Source of the DNA: Halanaerobiales bacterium
GTDB taxonomy: Bacteria > Bacillota > Halanaerobiia > Halanaerobiales > M55B127
Assembly (NCBI GenBank): GCA_018334565.1
Contig: JAGXLU010000016.1
Location: forward strand, 1 to 37,124
Length of the DNA stretch: 37,124 bases
Reading direction: 5' to 3'
Shown: positions 275-9,760 of the stretch, piece after piece
Layout: the number at the start of each line of letters is the position of its first letter
Numbering within the stretch: position 1 is the stretch's first letter
Program-made: the position numbers and the translations under genes
Notes under the pieces: model-generated
What the model was told of the DNA's origin: nothing
Databases searched by the model: none
The model's input: only the letters and a program-made list of their open reading frames with translations

Positions 275-2164
275 ATGTCTGAACCGATTATCAGTGATTA
301 TGATAAATATCTTTTCAATAAAGGCGAACATTTTCAAATATATAACTTTATGGGAGCCCAACTTATAACAAAAGATGGGCTAAAGGGTGTTAGCTTTGCT
401 GTTTGGGCACCCGCTGCCCGTAAGGTTTCCGTAGTAGGAGAATTTAATAATTGGAATAAATATGCCAACCAAATGAAAAAAATTAGTGGCAGTGGGATCT
501 GGACGGCTTTTATCTCCAATCTCACAGAAGATACTATTTATAAATATTCCATCACAGGACATCATGGTGACACATTTTTAAAATCTGATCCTGTTGCCTT
601 CTATTCTGAAAAAAGCCCTCAAACAGCCTCAATTGTTACTTCTCTAGAAAAATATCAATGGAATGATAAACAATGGATTGAAAAAAGAAAGAATAAGAAA
701 CCTCATATAGATCCTATCAATATCTATGAAGTACACGCTGGTTCATGGAAAACTAATCAGCAAGGTACTCCTTATAGTTATAGGGAGTTAGCAGATGAAT
801 TAATCCCTTATGTCAAAAATATGGGGTATACTCATATAGAATTAATGCCCCTAACAGAATATCCTTACGGGGGTTCCTGGGGTTATCAGACAACAGGTTA
901 TTTCTCTTTAACCAGCAGATATGGTAGACCAGAAGACTTTATGTATTTTGTTGATAAAGCTCACAGGGCAGAACTGTCTGTATTAATGGACTGGGTGCCC
1001 AGCCATTTCTGTAAAGATAACCATGGACTCAGATATTTTGACGGTACCCCTCTTTATGAAAATGCCGATCCTAAAAAAGCTGAAAATAAGCAGTGGGATA
1101 CCTTAAACTTTGATTTTTCACAACCAGAAGTATGGAGTTTCTTGATTTCTAGCGCCAGGTTCTTTTTAGATAAATACCATATAGATGGAATTAGGGTGGA
1201 TGCTGTCAGTAATATGCTCTATCTAGATTACAACAAAAAGGAAGGTGAATGGACCCCTAATAAATATGGTGGAAATGAAAACTTAGAAGCAGTTGATTTT
1301 TTAAAGACTTTAAACAAAGTGCTCTTTAAAGAATTCTCCGGAATTATGATGGTTGCTGAAGAATCTACAGCATGGCCCATGGTTACAGGAACTGTTGAAC
1401 AGGGAGGGCTCGGTTTTAATTTTAAATGGAATATGGGTTGGATGAATGATATTTTAGAATATATGGAGGAAGACCCCCTTCTAAGAAAGGGCAGGCATAA
1501 TTTACTAACTTTTTCAATGATGTACAATTACTCAGAAAATTATATATTGCCCCTTTCACATGATGAAGTAGTTCACAGCAAGAAATCTTTATTAGACAAA
1601 ATGTCCGGTGACTACTGGCAAAAATTTGCTAACCTGAGATTATTATTCGCCTATATGTTTGCTCATCCCGGCAAAAAACTCATCTTTATGGGAGGAGAGT
1701 TTGGGCAATTTATTGAATGGAACTACAAAAAAGAGTTGGACTGGCTACTTTTAGATTACACAAAGCACCAACAATTACATAAATATGTGAAAGAATTAAA
1801 TCATTTTTATCAAAAAAATGAGGCTCTCTGGATCAAAGATTATCAACAAGATGGTTTTGAATGGATTGAAGCAGATGACTACAAACATAGTTTGATAAGT
1901 TTTACCAGATCGGGACGAACTCTAGATGATTTAAGGGTTATCATCTGTAACTTCACACCTGTTGTTAGAAATAACTATAAAATAGGAGTACCAATTAAGG
2001 GTAAATATGAAGAAGCTTTTAATTCTGACCAAAAAAAATATGGCGGGTCAAACATCTGCAATGATCAAACCATTCACAGCACCAAGGATAAGTACCACGG
2101 ATTTGAACAATCAATAGAACTCACCGTTCCCCCTCTGGCTGCTATATTTTTAAAACTATTATAA
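275..2164 (+). CDS. glgB: 1,4-alpha-glucan branching enzyme
   Basis: Cytoplasmic GH13 enzyme that cuts alpha-1,4 chains and re-attaches them through alpha-1,6 bonds during glycogen synthesis. The 629-residue product has an N-terminal CBM48-like domain (roughly residues 20-110, with the 'VWAPAARKVSVVGEFNNW' block) and then a GH13 barrel. The catalytic set is intact: MDWVPSHF (region I), GIRVDAV with nucleophile D309, VAEES with acid/base E362, and LSHDEVV with H429-D430. A TTG in the same frame at 236 would add 13 residues. I prefer the ATG at 275 because TGGGGG lies 9 nt before it and homologs start near MSEP. The gene converges on the pullulanase gene with only 2 bp between the stop codons, so there is no room for a terminator between them. 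Length is normal for the shorter bacterial GlgB type. Confidence 0.95.
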   Translation: MSEPIISDYDKYLFNKGEHFQIYNFMGAQLITKDGLKGVSFAVWAPAARKVSVVGEFNNWNKYANQMKKISGSGIWTAFISNLTEDTIYKYSITGHHGDTFLKSDPVAFYSEKSPQTASIVTSLEKYQWNDKQWIEKRKNKKPHIDPINIYEVHAGSWKTNQQGTPYSYRELADELIPYVKNMGYTHIELMPLTEYPYGGSWGYQTTGYFSLTSRYGRPEDFMYFVDKAHRAELSVLMDWVPSHFCKDNHGLRYFDGTPLYENADPKKAENKQWDTLNFDFSQPEVWSFLISSARFFLDKYHIDGIRVDAVSNMLYLDYNKKEGEWTPNKYGGNENLEAVDFLKTLNKVLFKEFSGIMMVAEESTAWPMVTGTVEQGGLGFNFKWNMGWMNDILEYMEEDPLLRKGRHNLLTFSMMYNYSENYILPLSHDEVVHSKKSLLDKMSGDYWQKFANLRLLFAYMFAHPGKKLIFMGGEFGQFIEWNYKKELDWLLLDYTKHQQLHKYVKELNHFYQKNEALWIKDYQQDGFEWIEADDYKHSLISFTRSGRTLDDLRVIICNFTPVVRNNYKIGVPIKGKYEEAFNSDQKKYGGSNICNDQTIHSTKDKYHGFEQSIELTVPPLAAIFLKLL

Positions 2165-2166
2165 AT

Positions 2167-4068
2167 TTAGTCAACATATAAAACCATTGCAGATATTGGT
2201 GGTACTTTGACGTTGTCCGACTTGAAACTGTGCAGAATATCTGTCCCGGCTTTACCATTGACTACGATATTAAATTTCTTTTGTTTCTTAAACCAAAATC
2301 TACTCCAATGGTGCTGAGGATTATATACAACATATATCTCTTTCCAATCATCCCCATTAGCATAATCTTTAAGTACAAATCCAATAGCAGCATCTCCACT
2401 ATCTAAAAAATGTATTTTTTCTTTGATCATCTGAGGATCATTCATCCGAAAAGCAGGGTGTTCTCTCCTGAGTTTAATCAATCCCTTATAATATAAGAAA
2501 GTATCATAATACAGGGTTTTCCTTTCCCATTTAATCTGATTTATATGATCACCAGCATTGTAGCTGTTATGATTTCCATATTTAGTTCTTAAAAACTCTT
2601 CTCCGCCGTGTATAAACGGCACTCCTTGAGAAGTCAAAACAATTGCCTGAGCCAGGTGGTTCATTTTTATTCTGTCTTTTAAAGAAGCACTACTTACCGA
2701 CTTATTTATTTTGTCCCACAGAGTTAAATTATCATGTGCGCTCACATAGTTAATGGTTTCCTCTGGCTTATAAGTAAAATCTTTAATATCAAAGCTATAA
2801 TTTATACTGCCTACTGTACCTCTTTTAATATCATTAGTGGTTTCATATTTCCCATTTATATAACCGGTTACAAAGCCATCAGTATCTCCCTTAATAGCAT
2901 CTCTAAACCGATCATTAAAAAATCCTATTTTATGATCTTGCTGAATACCTTTATATATTTTCTGATAATCCTCTAAATTAGGTGGTTCAGCCGCCCAGGG
3001 TTCTCCATATAAGATTAAGTTTGGATTTATATTGTGTAATACCTTTTCTATAGTGAAAAATGTTTCTTTATCCATTAAACCCATTAAATCAAATCTGAAA
3101 CCATCTATATGATATTCTTTGACCCAGTATTTTAAAGAGTCAATGATAAACTTTCTGACCATCGGCCTTTCTGTAGCAATCTCATTGCCGCAACCCGAAC
3201 CATTAGTTAAATAACAATTATTTATTAATCTGTAAAAATAGCCGGGGGCTGTTTTCTGAAAAGAAGATTCCTTAGTGTAATAAGTATGGTTATATACAAC
3301 ATCCATAATAACACCTATATTATGATCATGAAGGGTTTTAACCATTTGCTTAAATTCTCTAATCCTATGGTAAGTATCTGGTTTATTTGCATAAGAACCT
3401 TCTGGTACATTATAAAAATGTGGATCATAACCCCAGTTATATTCATAACGGCTCTGCTCATCAACAGAGGCATAATCAAAAACAGGTAAGAAATGTACAT
3501 GAGTTATACCTAATTCTTTTAGATGATCAAGTCCAGTACTTAAACCCTGATTATTAACACTCCCTTGTTCAGTAAAAGCCAGATAATCACCTCGATTTCT
3601 CAAGCCTGACCTGGCAGACATGGAAAAATCCCTGACATGGACTTCATATATAACTGCATCCACAGGGCTATTTATGGCCTTCCCTTTATCACTTTCCCAG
3701 CCTTTAGGATTAGTCTTTTTTAAATTAACAATAAGACCCATCTGGCTGTTGGGAGCTAATCCTTTGGCATAAGGATCAATGGTCTCTTCTATTCTATCCC
3801 CAAAATTGATGGCAAATAAATAATATTTGCCAGCATAATTTCCTTTCAATTTAATTGTCCAGGTTCCATTAATATCCTTAAACATGTCGAATGTTTCCTG
3901 GGGTTCATTATTTTTATAATAATTATAAAGCTCTATTTCAACATTTTGAGCTGTTGGCGCCCACAACTTTATGATGGTTTCTTCTCTAGAATAATTGACA
4001 CCTAAATCTTCTCCGTGATAAATGTATTCGGGTCTATAAACACTTTCCTGCAATTCGATAATATCCAT
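2167..4068 (-). CDS. pulA: type I pullulanase / glycogen debranching enzyme
   Basis: Hydrolyses alpha-1,6 branch points of pullulan, limit dextrin or glycogen. The 633-residue protein has an N-terminal CBM48-like domain (about residues 15-110) and a GH13 subfamily-14 barrel. The pullulanase signature YNWGYDP is at 210-216. Catalytic residues are D327 (FRFD), E356 (YGEPW) and D446 (SAHDN), with region I DVVYNH at 256-261. There is no signal peptide, so it should act on intracellular glucan, which fits its place opposite glgB. The ATG at 4068 follows AAAGGAGAT with about 8 nt spacing. The upstream HD-GYP gene ends only 29 nt before it on the same strand, so the two may be co-transcribed. Length is at the short end for type I pullulanases, with no extra surface-binding modules. 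Confidence 0.93.
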   Translation of the reverse strand: MDIIELQESVYRPEYIYHGEDLGVNYSREETIIKLWAPTAQNVEIELYNYYKNNEPQETFDMFKDINGTWTIKLKGNYAGKYYLFAINFGDRIEETIDPYAKGLAPNSQMGLIVNLKKTNPKGWESDKGKAINSPVDAVIYEVHVRDFSMSARSGLRNRGDYLAFTEQGSVNNQGLSTGLDHLKELGITHVHFLPVFDYASVDEQSRYEYNWGYDPHFYNVPEGSYANKPDTYHRIREFKQMVKTLHDHNIGVIMDVVYNHTYYTKESSFQKTAPGYFYRLINNCYLTNGSGCGNEIATERPMVRKFIIDSLKYWVKEYHIDGFRFDLMGLMDKETFFTIEKVLHNINPNLILYGEPWAAEPPNLEDYQKIYKGIQQDHKIGFFNDRFRDAIKGDTDGFVTGYINGKYETTNDIKRGTVGSINYSFDIKDFTYKPEETINYVSAHDNLTLWDKINKSVSSASLKDRIKMNHLAQAIVLTSQGVPFIHGGEEFLRTKYGNHNSYNAGDHINQIKWERKTLYYDTFLYYKGLIKLRREHPAFRMNDPQMIKEKIHFLDSGDAAIGFVLKDYANGDDWKEIYVVYNPQHHWSRFWFKKQKKFNIVVNGKAGTDILHSFKSDNVKVPPISAMVLYVD

Positions 4069-4097
4069 AAGCTATATCTCCTTTGTGAATATAATGT

Positions 4098-5411
4098 TTA
4101 GATTGCTTTATTTCCCTGACTCAATATTTTAATAAACACTTCTACAATTTCGGGATCAAACTGTTCTCCTGCATTATTTTTTAATTCAATTTTAGCTGCT
4201 TTTTGATCTAAGGCTTGATGATAGGCTCGTTTGGAAGTCATAGCTGAATAAGAGTCTGCCACTGCAAGTATTCTAGATATTAACGGAATATTTTTACCTA
4301 CAATCCCTTCAGGATAACCTTTGCCATCCCATCTTTCATGATGATAAAGCACATATTCAGCTATTGTATCTAATCTTTTAGATTCTTTTAGTAACTCATA
4401 AGCCCAGCGTGGATGTTTCTTTATTAACTCATAATCTTTTTGGGTAAATTTGCTTTCTTTATTTAAAATAGTTTTTGGTATAAGCAATTTCCCAATATCA
4501 TGGACCAAACCCGCCCAATAGGCATCAATAATTTCATCTTCTTTAAGCCCTAATTCTCGTGCTATTTGTTGAGAAAGCTCAGCCACCTCTTCAGAATGAC
4601 CGCCGGTGTATCTATCATGTATCTCTAGAAATTTAATCATTGATAAGATTATATCACGTTGAAATTCACCCTGCAATTTATTATATCTTTGAAAGGTATA
4701 AAAAGATTCAGCCAGGTTGTTAAATGCTTCCAATGTTTCTACACTACTCTTGCGGAAATTTAAATCACTTTCTTTAGCAATATCTAAAGAAACACCTGCT
4801 AGTATTTGATCATCCACAACTAATGAAAAAGCCAAGGACTGTTTTATGTCTTTGGAAGCCTCTTTTAATAATTTAAATTGCTCTTCATTTAGATACTTTT
4901 TATCGTATAAAATTATATTATCTATAATTTTGGGTTTTTCACCAATAATCTGCAAAATGTCTTTATCATCTAAATTGAGTTCCTTCATTTTTTTTAAATC
5001 ATGTCCTATAGAATCAACAAAAACCACCTTATCTTCTTTAATCGTATAAATAATGCCATAATCGCTTTTTGGTACCAACTTATAGGCTGTCCTTAACAAT
5101 ACACTCAGAAATTTATCAACATCTGTAAATGTCTCTTTATTAATATTATTTATGAAATCAATCATTATTTTTAAATCTTCTGTCTGTTCATATAGGTTTT
5201 TATAAGAAGCCTCCAGGGCTTCATTGCCACTTTCAAGCCATTCTGTATATACTTGCAACTTCTTATTTTTTTTCTTTAATTCGTCTTTTGCACTCCTCAG
5301 TTTTTCAAAAGATCTTTTAAGTAGCAGATAAAAAATAGTACCTGTAATAAGCACATAACCGATACCCTTAAAGGTCTGTACCTGAGTTATTGCTGTCTGA
5401 TCATTTAACAT
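4098..5411 (-). CDS. HD-GYP domain protein (cyclic-di-GMP phosphodiesterase type), probably N-terminally truncated by a nonsense codon
   Basis: As it stands the open frame encodes 437 residues: a membrane segment near residues 13-30, a coiled-coil linker (about 35-80), a GAF-like sensor region (about 85-245) and a C-terminal HD-GYP domain. HD-GYP hallmarks are clear: RYTGGHSEEVA, the HDIGK metal motif, HHERWDGKGYP and the DSYSAMTSKRAY block. Such domains hydrolyse cyclic di-GMP. The start is doubtful: the ATG at 5411 has no convincing ribosome site. A well-placed ATG at 5499-5501 opens the same frame but meets TAG at 5442-5444. The pre-TAG and post-TAG residues read as one continuous membrane-anchor domain, so the gene is likely damaged or expressed only from an internal start. 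It lies 29 nt upstream of pulA. Confidence 0.8.
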   Translation of the reverse strand: MLNDQTAITQVQTFKGIGYVLITGTIFYLLLKRSFEKLRSAKDELKKKNKKLQVYTEWLESGNEALEASYKNLYEQTEDLKIMIDFINNINKETFTDVDKFLSVLLRTAYKLVPKSDYGIIYTIKEDKVVFVDSIGHDLKKMKELNLDDKDILQIIGEKPKIIDNIILYDKKYLNEEQFKLLKEASKDIKQSLAFSLVVDDQILAGVSLDIAKESDLNFRKSSVETLEAFNNLAESFYTFQRYNKLQGEFQRDIILSMIKFLEIHDRYTGGHSEEVAELSQQIARELGLKEDEIIDAYWAGLVHDIGKLLIPKTILNKESKFTQKDYELIKKHPRWAYELLKESKRLDTIAEYVLYHHERWDGKGYPEGIVGKNIPLISRILAVADSYSAMTSKRAYHQALDQKAAKIELKNNAGEQFDPEIVEVFIKILSQGNKAI

Positions 5412-5441
5412 AGCAACCAGGAACTCATCAGAAAAGTAAAT

Positions 5442-5501
5442 CTAAAGCACACCTAATACAAAATATATAAATATGATTTTTGCTTCATCTTTAATGTTCA
5501 T
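5442..5501 (-). pseudogene. detached N-terminus of the HD-GYP gene, ending in an in-frame TAG
   Basis: The ATG at 5501 is preceded by AAGGATG about 8 nt upstream and reads MNIKDEAKIIFIYFVLGVL, then TAG at 5442-5444. Ten sense codons follow in the same frame (IYFSDEFLVA) and lead straight into the downstream frame that starts at 5411. The pattern 'VLG-VL-W-IYFSDE' is what I expect for a membrane-anchored sensor N-terminus, so a TGG-to-TAG change is the simplest explanation. With the stop repaired the protein would be 467 residues. Confidence 0.65.
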
Positions 5502-5629
5502 TTCAAATCATCCTTATAAGTACCCACATGTATTTATAAATTCAAGATAGATGACAGTTTTCCTTTGAAGCAGGTAATAATATTTTTTTGTTGAATATTC
5601 AAATTAAGAGATAAAAGAGGTGCAAATTT

Positions 5630-6610
5630 ATGTCTAATCTTAATTGTTATTATAAATTTTCTAACTCTAAGATTGATGTAGTTAGTTTTGGTGAAATGCT
5701 TGTTGATTTTATTTCTCAAAAAAATGAAGTGCTCCTTTCAAAAGCAGAAGAATTTACACGACATTTTGGGGGATCAGCTGCTAATGTGACTGTAAACTTA
5801 AGAAGGCTTGGTGTTAAGACAAGATTAATTACCAGAATTGGTGATGATGCCTTCGGCCATTTTTTACTCGATGTGTTAAATAAAGAAAATATTAATACTA
5901 ACGGGATTCAAATTGATCAAAAAAGAAAAACCCCTTTAGTATTTATCAATAAAACGGCCGGGACACCTGCCTGGGTAGCCTACAGAGCTGCTGATAAATA
6001 CCTTGAATTTAATGAAAAAGTTGAATATCTTATCAAAAATGCTAAGATATTATATTTAACTACCTTTATCATCTCACAAAACCCAGCCCGCAAAGTGGCT
6101 TTAAAAATTTTAAATATGATCAAAGAAAATCCAAAAAAATTACTGGCTTTTGATCCTTGCTATAGACCCAGCCTGTGGTCTGACAGTAAGATGGGCAAGT
6201 CCCTGGTGAAAAAAATTATTGCGCTCTCGGATTTTATTAAACCTTCTTTAGATGATGCTAAAATTTTCTTTGGAACTGAATCTCCTGAAAACTATATAGA
6301 TAAATATTTGCAACTTGGAGCTAATATTGTTATATTAACTATGGGAAAAGATGGTGTCCTCTTTTCAGATGGAAAAACAAAAATACATCTTCCATCTTAT
6401 GCTGATGAGGTTGTTGATGTTACCGGTGCTGGCGATGCTTTTTGGGCTGGTTTTATTACAGCTATTCTTGATGGTATGAGTGTCAAAAAAGCAGTTGAAT
6501 TAGGTAATATAACCGCAGTCTTTAAGATCAGAGGGATCGGTGCTTTGTCACCAATCCCCAGCAAAAAACACCTTATTAAATTCATGAAAAAACAGGAGGC
6601 TTCTCAATGA
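5630..6610 (+). CDS. PfkB-family carbohydrate kinase, probable fructokinase
   Basis: ATP-dependent sugar kinase of the ribokinase/PfkB fold, 326 residues. Visible family marks are the N-terminal FGEMLVDF strand, the substrate-binding block FGGSAANVTVNLRRLG (about residues 45-60), and the C-terminal DVTGAGDAFWAGF signature with catalytic base D269. Fructokinase is inferred from context: the next gene is sucrose-phosphate synthase, whose acceptor is fructose-6-phosphate. 2-Keto-3-deoxygluconate or ribose cannot be excluded from sequence alone. The ATG at 5630 follows AGAGGTG with about 8 nt spacing. The stop overlaps the next start in an ATGA arrangement (6607-6610), which suggests translational coupling. 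Confidence 0.88.
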   Translation: MSNLNCYYKFSNSKIDVVSFGEMLVDFISQKNEVLLSKAEEFTRHFGGSAANVTVNLRRLGVKTRLITRIGDDAFGHFLLDVLNKENINTNGIQIDQKRKTPLVFINKTAGTPAWVAYRAADKYLEFNEKVEYLIKNAKILYLTTFIISQNPARKVALKILNMIKENPKKLLAFDPCYRPSLWSDSKMGKSLVKKIIALSDFIKPSLDDAKIFFGTESPENYIDKYLQLGANIVILTMGKDGVLFSDGKTKIHLPSYADEVVDVTGAGDAFWAGFITAILDGMSVKKAVELGNITAVFKIRGIGALSPIPSKKHLIKFMKKQEASQ

Positions 6611-8085
6611 AAGATTCGCATATAGAACACATATCTATCTTAAATCCACAGGGTAATTTTGATCCCAATGATAGTTACTGGACAGAACACCCAGATTTTG
6701 GCGGACAATTGGTATATGTAAAAGAACTTTCTCTGGCTTTGGCTGGATTAGGTATTGATGTTGATATAATTACAAGGCAAATTAAAGATGAAAATTGGCC
6801 AGAATTTTCTAAACCCATTGATAATTATTCAGAAAGCAACAGACTTAGAATAATCAGGGTTCCTTTCGGGAAAAATCTTTTTTTGAAAAAAGAAGATTTA
6901 TGGCCATTTCTTCATGAATATATAAAAAAAATTATAAATTTTTATAAACAGGAAGACAACTTCCCTGATTATTTTTCAACTCATTATGCAGACGGTGGTT
7001 TAAGTGGTGTACTATTGAAACAAAAATTAAATATTCCTTTTGTTTTTACTGGACATTCTTTAGGTGCTCAGAAAATGGATAAACTGGATGTAAATAAGAT
7101 AAATTTTACAGAATATAATACTAAATTTAATTTTCACAGGAGGATAATTGCTGAAAGACTTGCAATGAATCATGCCGATGGTATAATTACATCTACATCC
7201 CAGGAAAGATTTGAACAGTATTCTCACTATCTTTATGGAAAAGCGATTGACATAAGTCAAGATAAAAAATTTAAAGTTATACCTCCAGGTATTAATACCA
7301 ATATTTTTAATGGTCAATATAGCAAAAAGATAAAAAACAAGATAGATCATTATATTAATAGAGATATAAAAACAAATCGGACTGACCTTCCATTAATTAT
7401 AGCATCAAGCCGCCTTGATCAGAAAAAAAATCATTTGGGCCTGGTCACGGCTTTTGCTGAAAATAATAAAATTCAAAAACATGCAAACCTTGCAATAGCA
7501 TTAAGGGGTATTGAAAATCCTTTTGAAGATTATTCAGAAGCTAACAAGGAAGAAAAAAACATACTTGACCAAATAATCAAGATTATTTATAATAATAACT
7601 GTATAGGCAAAGTCACAATGTTTTCTCTCAACAATCAAAAACAATTAGCAGAAACTTATTCATATTTAACCAGCAAAAATTCAGTGTTTGCTTTAACATC
7701 ATTTTATGAGCCATTTGGGCTAGCACCTATTGAAGCTATGGCCTGTGGCTTACCGGCAGTAGTTACCAAAAATGGTGGTCCTCATGAAATTATGAAGAAG
7801 GGGAAATATGGTATCCTAGTTAATCCGGAAGATCCCGATGATATTGCACAAGGGCTATTAACGATTTTAACTGATAAAGAAACATGGAATAAGTATCATA
7901 AAAAAGGTAAAAAAAGGGTATTATCAAAATATACCTGGGAACAAACTGCTGAAAGCTATTTAAAATTTATGGAAAACATCTCTGAAAATAATGCTAATAA
8001 AATGGAGATTCCCGCTTATTTTAAAAAACCGGACAGTAAAAATGATTCACGATTACTAAATATATTTTTACACCTATGGAGATAA
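6607..8085 (+). CDS. sps: sucrose-phosphate synthase (GT4 family)
   Basis: Transfers glucose from UDP- or ADP-glucose to fructose-6-phosphate to give sucrose-6-phosphate. The 492-residue protein begins with the SPS pattern LNPQGNFDP, DSYWTEHPDFGGQLVYV, followed by THYADGG and FTGHSLGAQK in the N-lobe. The C-lobe has SSRLDQKKNHLGL (about 264-276) and the donor-site block SFYEPFGLAPIEAMACGLP (about 360-378), as in retaining GT-B enzymes. I recognise a strong resemblance to the Halothermothrix orenii enzyme. There is no C-terminal sucrose-phosphatase (HAD) domain, and no separate phosphatase gene lies in the window. The start is fixed by the 4-nt overlap with the kinase gene, whose last codons (AGGAGG at 6594-6599) provide the ribosome site. 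Confidence 0.93.
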   Translation: MKDSHIEHISILNPQGNFDPNDSYWTEHPDFGGQLVYVKELSLALAGLGIDVDIITRQIKDENWPEFSKPIDNYSESNRLRIIRVPFGKNLFLKKEDLWPFLHEYIKKIINFYKQEDNFPDYFSTHYADGGLSGVLLKQKLNIPFVFTGHSLGAQKMDKLDVNKINFTEYNTKFNFHRRIIAERLAMNHADGIITSTSQERFEQYSHYLYGKAIDISQDKKFKVIPPGINTNIFNGQYSKKIKNKIDHYINRDIKTNRTDLPLIIASSRLDQKKNHLGLVTAFAENNKIQKHANLAIALRGIENPFEDYSEANKEEKNILDQIIKIIYNNNCIGKVTMFSLNNQKQLAETYSYLTSKNSVFALTSFYEPFGLAPIEAMACGLPAVVTKNGGPHEIMKKGKYGILVNPEDPDDIAQGLLTILTDKETWNKYHKKGKKRVLSKYTWEQTAESYLKFMENISENNANKMEIPAYFKKPDSKNDSRLLNIFLHLWR

Positions 8086-8137
8086 AACATACGTTTGAAC
8101 ATTTATGTAATAAACTTATTTGGGAGAGTGATAAACT

Positions 8138-9760
8138 TTGATTCAAAATAATAAGCAAAAAAAAGTTGCATATTTTTGTATGGAATATGGTATAAATAGT
8201 AATTTACGAATATATGCAGGCGGCCTGGGAATTCTCGCCGGAGATATTTTAAAAACCGCTCATGAATATGATTACCCCATTTTTGGCATTGGTATGCTCT
8301 GGCTGGAAGGTTATACAAAACAACTTATTGATGAAAATGGCCGTCCTTATGATAAATATCCTATAAATGAATATATTTATGATTATTTAGAAGATACAGA
8401 TGTAAAAGTCAATATTAAGGTTAAGGGTAAAGATATCAAGTTAAAGGTGTGGAAGCTAAAAACTGATTATATGAATACCCTCTACCTTCTTGACTCAAAT
8501 TTAGAGGAAAATGGTAAATATGGCTGGATAACTAAAAGATTATATGCCTGGGGAGAAGAAGAAAGAATTGCTCAGGAAATCGCGCTCGGTATTGGCGGAA
8601 TAAGGGCTATTAGAGCTCTTGGTTTAGACGTTGATGTCTATCACTTTAATGAAGGACATGCTGTGTTTGCAGGTACTGAAATAATTAATGAAAAAATGAA
8701 TAAAGGATTAGATTTTGCACAGGCCTTGACTGCTACTCAAAATAAAGTGGTGTTTACAACACATACTCCTGTTAAAAAAGGTAATGAAGAACATGAACAC
8801 AGCTTATTAAAAAGTATGGGGGCCTATAATGGGTTAACAAAAAGACAGATGATAAAAATTGGCAATGACCCTTTTGGTAATACAGTAGCCGGCTTGAAGT
8901 TAGCTAAAATATCTAACGGAGTAGCTCAGCTACATGGTGTAACAGCCAGACAGATGTGGGAACACATAGAAGGTAAATCTCCCATTAAAGCCATAACAAA
9001 TGGCATTCATCGTAAAACATGGGTGGATTCGCGTATATATAAAGCCTTTGAAGATGGTGATGATTTACTGCCTATACATCAACAATTGAAATCAGAGTTG
9101 ATTAATTACGTAAAGGATAAAACCAACAGTCAACTTGATAATGATAAACTTTTGATTGGCTTTGCCAGAAGAGCAGCTCCTTATAAAAGAGCAAATTTAA
9201 TATTCAGAAAGATGGATCTTGTAGATCCATATCTACGAGAAGGCAAAATACAGATAATTTTTTCTGGAAAAGCTCATCCTTTAGATGATAAAGGAAAAGA
9301 CTTAGTGGAAGAAATAGTTAATATCTCAAAAAAATATCCCAATAGTGTTGTGTTTTTAGAAGATTATGATATGGAAATTGCCAAGATGATGACCAGAGGT
9401 GTGGATGTTTGGTTGAATAATCCACGTAGGCCGAAAGAAGCCAGCGGTACTTCTGGTATGAAATCAGCTATGAACGGTGTCTTAAATTTGAGTATTCTAG
9501 ATGGTTGGTGGCCTGAGGCTTGTCAGCACGGTATGAATGGCTGGCAATTTGGTGATGGTTATATGGGTGATAATCAAGACAAACATGACCTTGATTCCCT
9601 TTATAGAGTGCTGTTAAAAGAAGTATTACCTACTTATTATGATCATAAAGCTAAATGGGAAGAGATGATGAACAACAGTATTGAGAGCACCTATGAAGAC
9701 TTTTCAGCCCGTAAAATGTTAGAAAATTATTATTTAAAGATGTACAGAAAAATTAAATAA
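8138..9760 (+). CDS. glgP: alpha-glucan phosphorylase, short form (GT35)
   Basis: PLP-dependent enzyme that releases glucose-1-phosphate from alpha-1,4-glucan ends. At 540 residues it belongs to the short 'alpha-glucan family phosphorylase' group rather than the roughly 800-residue glycogen phosphorylases. Marks seen are ACTIVE-site style blocks: YFCMEYG at the N-terminus, AGGLGILAGD (about 28-37), HFNEGHA (about 171-177), GFARRAAPYKRA (about 346-357) and the PLP site EASGTSGMKSAMNG with the Schiff-base lysine K442. The start is a TTG at 8138 with GGGAGAG about 10 nt upstream. No ATG fits the conserved N-terminus. It is 52 nt downstream of the SPS gene on the same strand and is followed by a strong terminator, so it is the last gene of the kinase-SPS-phosphorylase operon. 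Confidence 0.92.
   Translation: MIQNNKQKKVAYFCMEYGINSNLRIYAGGLGILAGDILKTAHEYDYPIFGIGMLWLEGYTKQLIDENGRPYDKYPINEYIYDYLEDTDVKVNIKVKGKDIKLKVWKLKTDYMNTLYLLDSNLEENGKYGWITKRLYAWGEEERIAQEIALGIGGIRAIRALGLDVDVYHFNEGHAVFAGTEIINEKMNKGLDFAQALTATQNKVVFTTHTPVKKGNEEHEHSLLKSMGAYNGLTKRQMIKIGNDPFGNTVAGLKLAKISNGVAQLHGVTARQMWEHIEGKSPIKAITNGIHRKTWVDSRIYKAFEDGDDLLPIHQQLKSELINYVKDKTNSQLDNDKLLIGFARRAAPYKRANLIFRKMDLVDPYLREGKIQIIFSGKAHPLDDKGKDLVEEIVNISKKYPNSVVFLEDYDMEIAKMMTRGVDVWLNNPRRPKEASGTSGMKSAMNGVLNLSILDGWWPEACQHGMNGWQFGDGYMGDNQDKHDLDSLYRVLLKEVLPTYYDHKAKWEEMMNNSIESTYEDFSARKMLENYYLKMYRKIK

Follow-up and report, generated by a model that had tools for sequence, protein, structure and literature searches.

The closest described relatives of the system reported here are the sucrose-phosphate synthase (SPS) and the fructokinase of H. 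orenii, both with solved structures (2R60, 2R66 and 2R68 for SPS, 3HJ6 for the kinase). The SPS of H. orenii was crystallised with fructose-6-phosphate and sucrose-6-phosphate (PMC11046441), sucrose was proposed in 2009 as a possible compatible solute of this organism (PMC2626281), and in 2014 SPS was tied to osmotic protection in H. hydrogeniformans (PMC4237134). Here, we analysed a stretch of 37,124 nucleotides (hereafter the window) from a Halanaerobiales bacterium (assembly GCA_018334565.1, contig JAGXLU010000016.1), in which genes for SPS and a PfkB-family sugar kinase are located in a block with the glycogen genes glgB, pulA and glgP. The window harbours the same two proteins as H. orenii, in the same order. 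Similar to the window, the methanotrophs Methylocaldum and Methylococcus Mc7 possess SPS in a sugar gene cluster, for which a link to salt tolerance was suggested; unlike in the window, their SPS gene shares its cluster with genes for a dedicated phosphatase and for sucrose synthase, and Mc7 is without fructokinase (PMC8527097). Cyanobacteria also possess SPS, and their sucrose and glycogen pools are linked under salt (PMC6753628). They differ in having a dedicated phosphatase (with a TIGR02471 match in Synechococcus elongatus), and the salt response was measured in them.

Judged by sequence, the SPS and the kinase of the window are close relatives of the two H. orenii proteins. The SPS is 62.6% identical to that of H. 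orenii over 494 columns, and its match to the solved structure 2r60 extends over 489 residues (query 4-492), which corresponds to full-length GT-B homology. The kinase is 53% identical to the H. orenii kinase. In the SPS of Thermosynechococcus (TeSPS), H158 and E331 are catalytic, and E339 and R249/R253 lie on the UDP side (PMC7264703). By motif and spacing, rather than by residue-by-residue alignment to TeSPS, the SPS of the window retains H150, E368, E376 and R269/K273, with Lys at the position of R253.

Curated models did not assign either protein above their cut-offs. For TIGR02472 (SPS, cut-off 576), the window protein scored 329.2 bits and the solved H. orenii SPS 322.5 bits; for PRK09434 (fructokinase, cut-off 450), the kinases scored 151.6 and 162.4, respectively. 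The top curated model of the kinase was IolC, with 197.9 bits in the window and 210.7 for H. orenii (cut-off 300). Because the H. orenii proteins also fall below the SPS and fructokinase cut-offs, these are uninformative here, and we rejected them as an argument against the names. The substrate of the kinase is probably fructose, as its relationship to the H. orenii protein suggests. The paper describing the structure of the latter reportedly contains no assay.

The gene order was compared among 38 genomes of the order Halanaerobiales, several of them incomplete. An SPS-family gene was present in 26 of these, distributed over families f1 (5/5), f3 (13/14), f5 (7/8) and f6 (1/1), and was found in none of the genomes of f2 (0/1), f4 (0/1) and f7 (0/8). 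Stretches of about 20 kb were examined at 27 loci from the 26 genomes, one genome with two copies of the block (G001, contigs C11 and C7) being counted as two loci, together with one locus from a genome outside the order (G039). At 24 of the 27 loci, the gene immediately upstream of SPS is that of the kinase, with gaps of -65 to +22 nt. The three exceptions are G004, with a broken kinase gene, and G006 and G017, with none. Among loci covering its position, the donor-site Glu368 is kept at 25/25, and His150 is kept at 27 of 28 loci. In families f1 and f3, glgP directly follows the SPS-family gene at all 19 loci (18/18 genomes), including two loci encoding only the acceptor domain of SPS. This arrangement was found at none of the six testable loci of f5 and f6, and two further f5 contigs end at SPS. 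The pulA gene is opposed and adjacent at 13/13 f3 loci, and in f1 an HD-GYP gene intervenes. Beyond pulA, glgD, glgC, glgB and glgA stand in line at two loci (L050 and L062).

A scan of named genomes, in which the best 80 of 265 matching stretches were considered, revealed the same gene order in Halanaerobium congolense, H. saccharolyticum, H. kushneri and H. polyolivorans among the matches listed. Similar to the window, these Halanaerobium clusters have pulA opposed to kinase-SPS-glgP, with glg genes near in some of them. They differ in that no HD-GYP gene separates pulA from the kinase gene, and in that a sucrose phosphorylase-type gene lies close by in some of them. Checking synteny within the order, as the original prediction had proposed, thus showed that the order is conserved. 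The arrangement is more than chance, because the kinase and SPS genes are neighbours at 24 of 27 loci, and each of the 18 f1 and f3 genomes has glgP directly after the SPS-family gene.

On balance, though with reserve, we favour the reading that the block is a glycogen-linked supply of sucrose-6-phosphate, from which sucrose would arise through dephosphorylation by a general HAD hydrolase and serve as small solute or carbon buffer. Kinase and SPS would form a two-gene sucrose-6-phosphate module within the glycogen cluster, and a single locus would hold glycogen building and breaking with a side exit to sucrose-6-phosphate. GlgP and PulA would free glucose-1-phosphate from glycogen, GalU would make UDP-glucose, and SPS would couple it to fructose-6-phosphate. 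The latter could be obtained from glucose-1-phosphate by a mutase and an isomerase, or be formed by the kinase where fructose is available in free form. The phosphate would then probably be stripped by a Cof-type HAD hydrolase of general function. No phosphatase or nucleotidyltransferase gene was detected when the proteins of the block were searched against families, as had been predicted. Elsewhere in the same genome, genes for GalU (UDP-glucose; contig C20) and GlgC (ADP-glucose; contig C93) were found, both over the curated cut-offs.

The prediction that the block could feed both halves of sucrose-6-phosphate from glycogen is supported in part, by the gene identities, by the linkage of SPS with glycogen genes in two families, and by the presence of GalU, GlgC and GlgA in the genome. 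Fructose-6-phosphate from glycogen would require phosphoglucomutase and glucose-6-phosphate isomerase, and the kinase requires free fructose. The kinase lies off the glycogen-to-sucrose route, and the part of the claim in which it draws on glycogen carbon was not upheld. In G004 (L042:1-1054) the kinase gene is decayed, its pieces recognised by eye in different frames, and the adjoining SPS gene is intact.

Several results weigh against the glycogen-linked reading, beginning with the specificity scores of the kinase, which lie below the curated cut-offs. The dedicated sucrose-phosphate phosphatase (SPP) family TIGR02471 was not found at E 1e-10 in any of the 41 genomes searched in total for phosphatase and sucrose genes; among 14 control genomes, B. 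subtilis and S. elongatus matched, one of them over the cut-off. A complete pathway of SPS and SPP was thus not recognised in these genomes, and sucrose is a candidate end product. Matches to PF05116 were present in 40 of the 41 genomes, with at best 45.4 bits for a single piece and up to 53.9 for joined pieces. They were not taken as support for SPP, being weak, mostly split, and, for the three proteins scored against NCBIfam, Cof-type HADs; HADs from other genomes were compared by BLAST only. The genome of the window encodes one full-length PF08282 protein, a Cof-type HAD on contig C76, besides three weak partial matches. This gene is not near SPS, which also speaks against the reading, and its product is 31-33% identical to two HADs of Halanaerobacter jeridensis. 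In that species (L163:8004-12239), genes for a LacI-type regulator, the kinase and SPS are followed by those two Cof-type HAD genes, which are candidates for the missing phosphatase, and their placement fits a Cof-type enzyme in this function. The search for a HAD-type phosphatase outside the block, suggested originally, hence yielded no dedicated family member and one general Cof-type HAD in the genome of the window.

The negative search for the dedicated phosphatase family in the 41 genomes would also be expected if sucrose-6-phosphate itself were the end product, as a charged solute or signal, with no enzyme dedicated to phosphate removal. A charged solute would suit a potassium-rich cell, and the genome of the window has no match to GH32 or to sucrose phosphorylase. 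Nonetheless, a Cof-type HAD is encoded in the genome and two such genes adjoin SPS in H. jeridensis, and we consider this explanation very improbable. We know of no precedent for sucrose-6-phosphate as an end product, which also counts against it.

The means of using sucrose are further points against sucrose formation in this organism. Sucrose phosphorylase (TIGR03852) had no match in the genome of the window at E 1e-60 and GH32 had none at E 0.001, so that two usual routes of sucrose re-use are missing there. Among the 41 genomes, nine encode a TIGR03852 protein over the cut-off and 16 have a GH32 match. Invertase was discarded as a source of free fructose, given the missing GH32 match. Sucrose-6-phosphate phosphorylase (GH13_18) was likewise rejected as the missing partner for the genome of the window (no match at E 1e-60), and is possible in some Halanaerobium genomes. 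Five f3 loci (L044, L046, L051, L052 and L053) possess a sucrose phosphorylase-type GH13_18 gene over the cut-off and a LacI-cluster gene near pulA, within 20 kb; the GH13_18 product could act on sucrose or sucrose-6-phosphate. These five loci would fit a pair working in breakdown, with SPS reversed on sucrose-6-phosphate and the kinase rescuing fructose. So would G039 (L059:5116-16187) and L201, a metagenome-assembled genome labelled Halothermothrix, where the pair lies with LacI, ATP-binding cassette (ABC) sugar transporter-like genes, GalT, beta-phosphoglucomutase and GH65, a different and possibly catabolic context for SPS. For the window, breakdown appears highly unlikely, as its block has no transporter gene and the genome neither GH32 nor sucrose phosphorylase matches; a sucrose phosphotransferase system, the would-be supplier of sucrose-6-phosphate, was not among the searches.

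The kinase-SPS pair was also found apart from glycogen genes, which limits a glycogen-to-sucrose reading. In the genome taken as H. orenii (G009), a LacI-type gene precedes the pair and no glycogen gene was found in the 20 kb examined; in family f5 the pair likewise stands without glycogen genes in the stretch examined. Genes for LacI-type regulators lie beside kinase and SPS in H. orenii, H. jeridensis and G039, which suggests control by sugar rather than by salt. Passages of a 2024 salt study of H. congolense name other osmolytes and do not favour sucrose (PMC11637423). Ectoine synthase, considered for a rival osmolyte, was over the cut-off in 0/41 genomes, with one weak match; no control genome matched either, which makes this a weak negative.

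The regulators, together with the close association with glycogen genes in f1 and f3, agree with a possible but rather unlikely alternative in which sucrose or sucrose-6-phosphate buffers carbon flow (overflow or storage turnover) and is not an osmolyte, salt not being in control. According to passages of a 2013 review, high internal ions in the order need not be doubted, and whether sucrose reaches a high concentration "remains to be ascertained" (PMC3817357). However, cyanobacteria use SPS-type systems for salt acclimation (PMC6753628), and the SPS-family gene is present in 26 of 38 genomes of an order known for halophiles.

Two of the genomes carry a shortened SPS-family gene where SPS would be expected, flanked by pulA and glgP. 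G006 (L062:9094-9960) and G017 (L063:9097-9948) possess intact open reading frames of 288 and 283 amino acids, respectively, which correspond to the SPS acceptor domain and the C-terminal segment; about 200 residues of the donor domain are missing, as is the kinase gene. Searches of the rest of both genomes revealed no full SPS. The G006 protein was also found in Halanaerobium sp. MA284_MarDTE_T2 (L144:9001-9861), which is probably the same assembly and not an independent case. The two proteins are 35% identical to each other, and that of G006 is 65% identical over the domain to a full-length SPS from the Halanaerobiaceae side (G020). Their scores with the SPS model are 131.9 bits (G006) and 55 bits (G017). 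Assembly error or a decaying pseudogene was set aside as an explanation, as G006 lies on a 156-kb contig, both frames are stop-free with the same tail, and in a substitution-only drift simulation to 60% or 34% identity 0/400 copies stayed stop-free in each setting. In the tree the branch of G017 is very long and that of G006 fairly long; the two are not grouped, and the donor domain may have been deleted once or separately.

Structure prediction and fold search were run on the acceptor-domain-only protein. The predicted model of the G006 protein (predicted local distance difference test, pLDDT, 78.5; predicted template-modelling score, pTM, 0.81) has low confidence in the substrate loop. It matches 2r60 best, and also 6ldq with a template-modelling (TM) score of 0.83 by target length. 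The latter is a man-made acceptor-domain fragment of TeSPS built for crystallography (PMC7264703); provided that they have a function, the acceptor-domain-only proteins would be its equivalent in nature. A further, doubtful explanation is that the SPS acceptor domain has a second, non-catalytic function tied to glycogen phosphorylase, as sugar-phosphate sensor or GlgP partner, which the full-length SPS of the window may share. G006 keeps the catalytic His, with NGQ in place of GGQ. G017 lost the HPDFGGQ loop and the catalytic His, which counts against a kept function in G017 and against a shared sugar-phosphate site.

The genes of the block are listed in the table. The five genes named in the original prediction are all present, and the 4-nt overlap between the kinase stop and the SPS start agrees with the coordinates; the HD-GYP gene between pulA and the kinase had been overlooked.

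Table. Genes of the block at positions 275-9,760 of the window, with the match supporting each assignment
Feature	Position	Strand	Evidence
glgB (GlgB)	275..2164	+	TIGR01515, 887.3 bits (cut-off 463.95)
pulA, type I pullulanase/debranching enzyme, 633 aa	2167..4068	-	TIGR02104, 752 bits (cut-off 504.5)
HD-GYP domain protein, hydrophobic N-terminal part, 437 aa	4098..5411	-	PF13487, E 3.7e-40
PfkB-family sugar kinase, probably fructokinase, 326 aa	5630..6610	+	PF00294, E 1.8e-65; best solved relative 3hj6 "Fructokinase", E 1.1e-110
sucrose-phosphate synthase (SPS), GT4, GT-B fold, no phosphatase domain, 492 aa	6607..8085	+	2r60, E 7.1e-217
glgP, short alpha-glucan phosphorylase, 540 aa	8138..9760	+	TIGR02094, 625.8 bits (cut-off 191.7)

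Because pulA and the HD-GYP gene oppose the other four genes, the block is not a single transcription unit. Promoter-like and terminator-like sites were not in excess over shuffled sequences (49 vs 48.0, and 6 vs 5.3, respectively). Read from 5501, the HD-GYP frame has TAG at codon 20, a position at which relatives of the same genus have Trp. Given this stop, the usable start is at 5411 and the first hydrophobic segment is lost; relatives have 466-476 aa.

The genome comprises 2.16 Mb in 94 contigs, and glgB starts 275 bases from the edge of the window's contig (C1). The glycogen cluster probably continues beyond this edge, because glgA adjoins glgB at three loci of the same genus (L038, L040 and L041) and a full-length GlgA gene is located near the start of contig C73 of the same genome. 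GlgB, PulA and GlgP in the block, and GlgC and GlgA elsewhere, are all over the curated cut-offs, and together represent a glycogen metabolism cluster. At the other end of the contig (36355-37122, minus strand), broken frames with internal stops have a weak match to a sugar nucleotidyltransferase (PF00483, 24.5 bits) and resemble a remnant gene.

No description of an SPS-glycogen block was found in the open-licence literature searched, which lacks most subscription papers. A 2026 survey of 31 Halanaerobium genomes reports glgBC and pulA as conserved, and the passages concerned do not mention SPS (PMC13340142). The block is real and conserved, and known families account for most of it; what makes it interesting is the unproved end product, together with the relatives that consist of the acceptor domain only. 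The H. orenii genome prompted the question in 2009 whether Halanaerobiales make sucrose (PMC2626281). The glycogen linkage and the unrecognised phosphatase make this question testable, and the list of candidate HADs is short, with a single full-length Cof-type protein in this genome.

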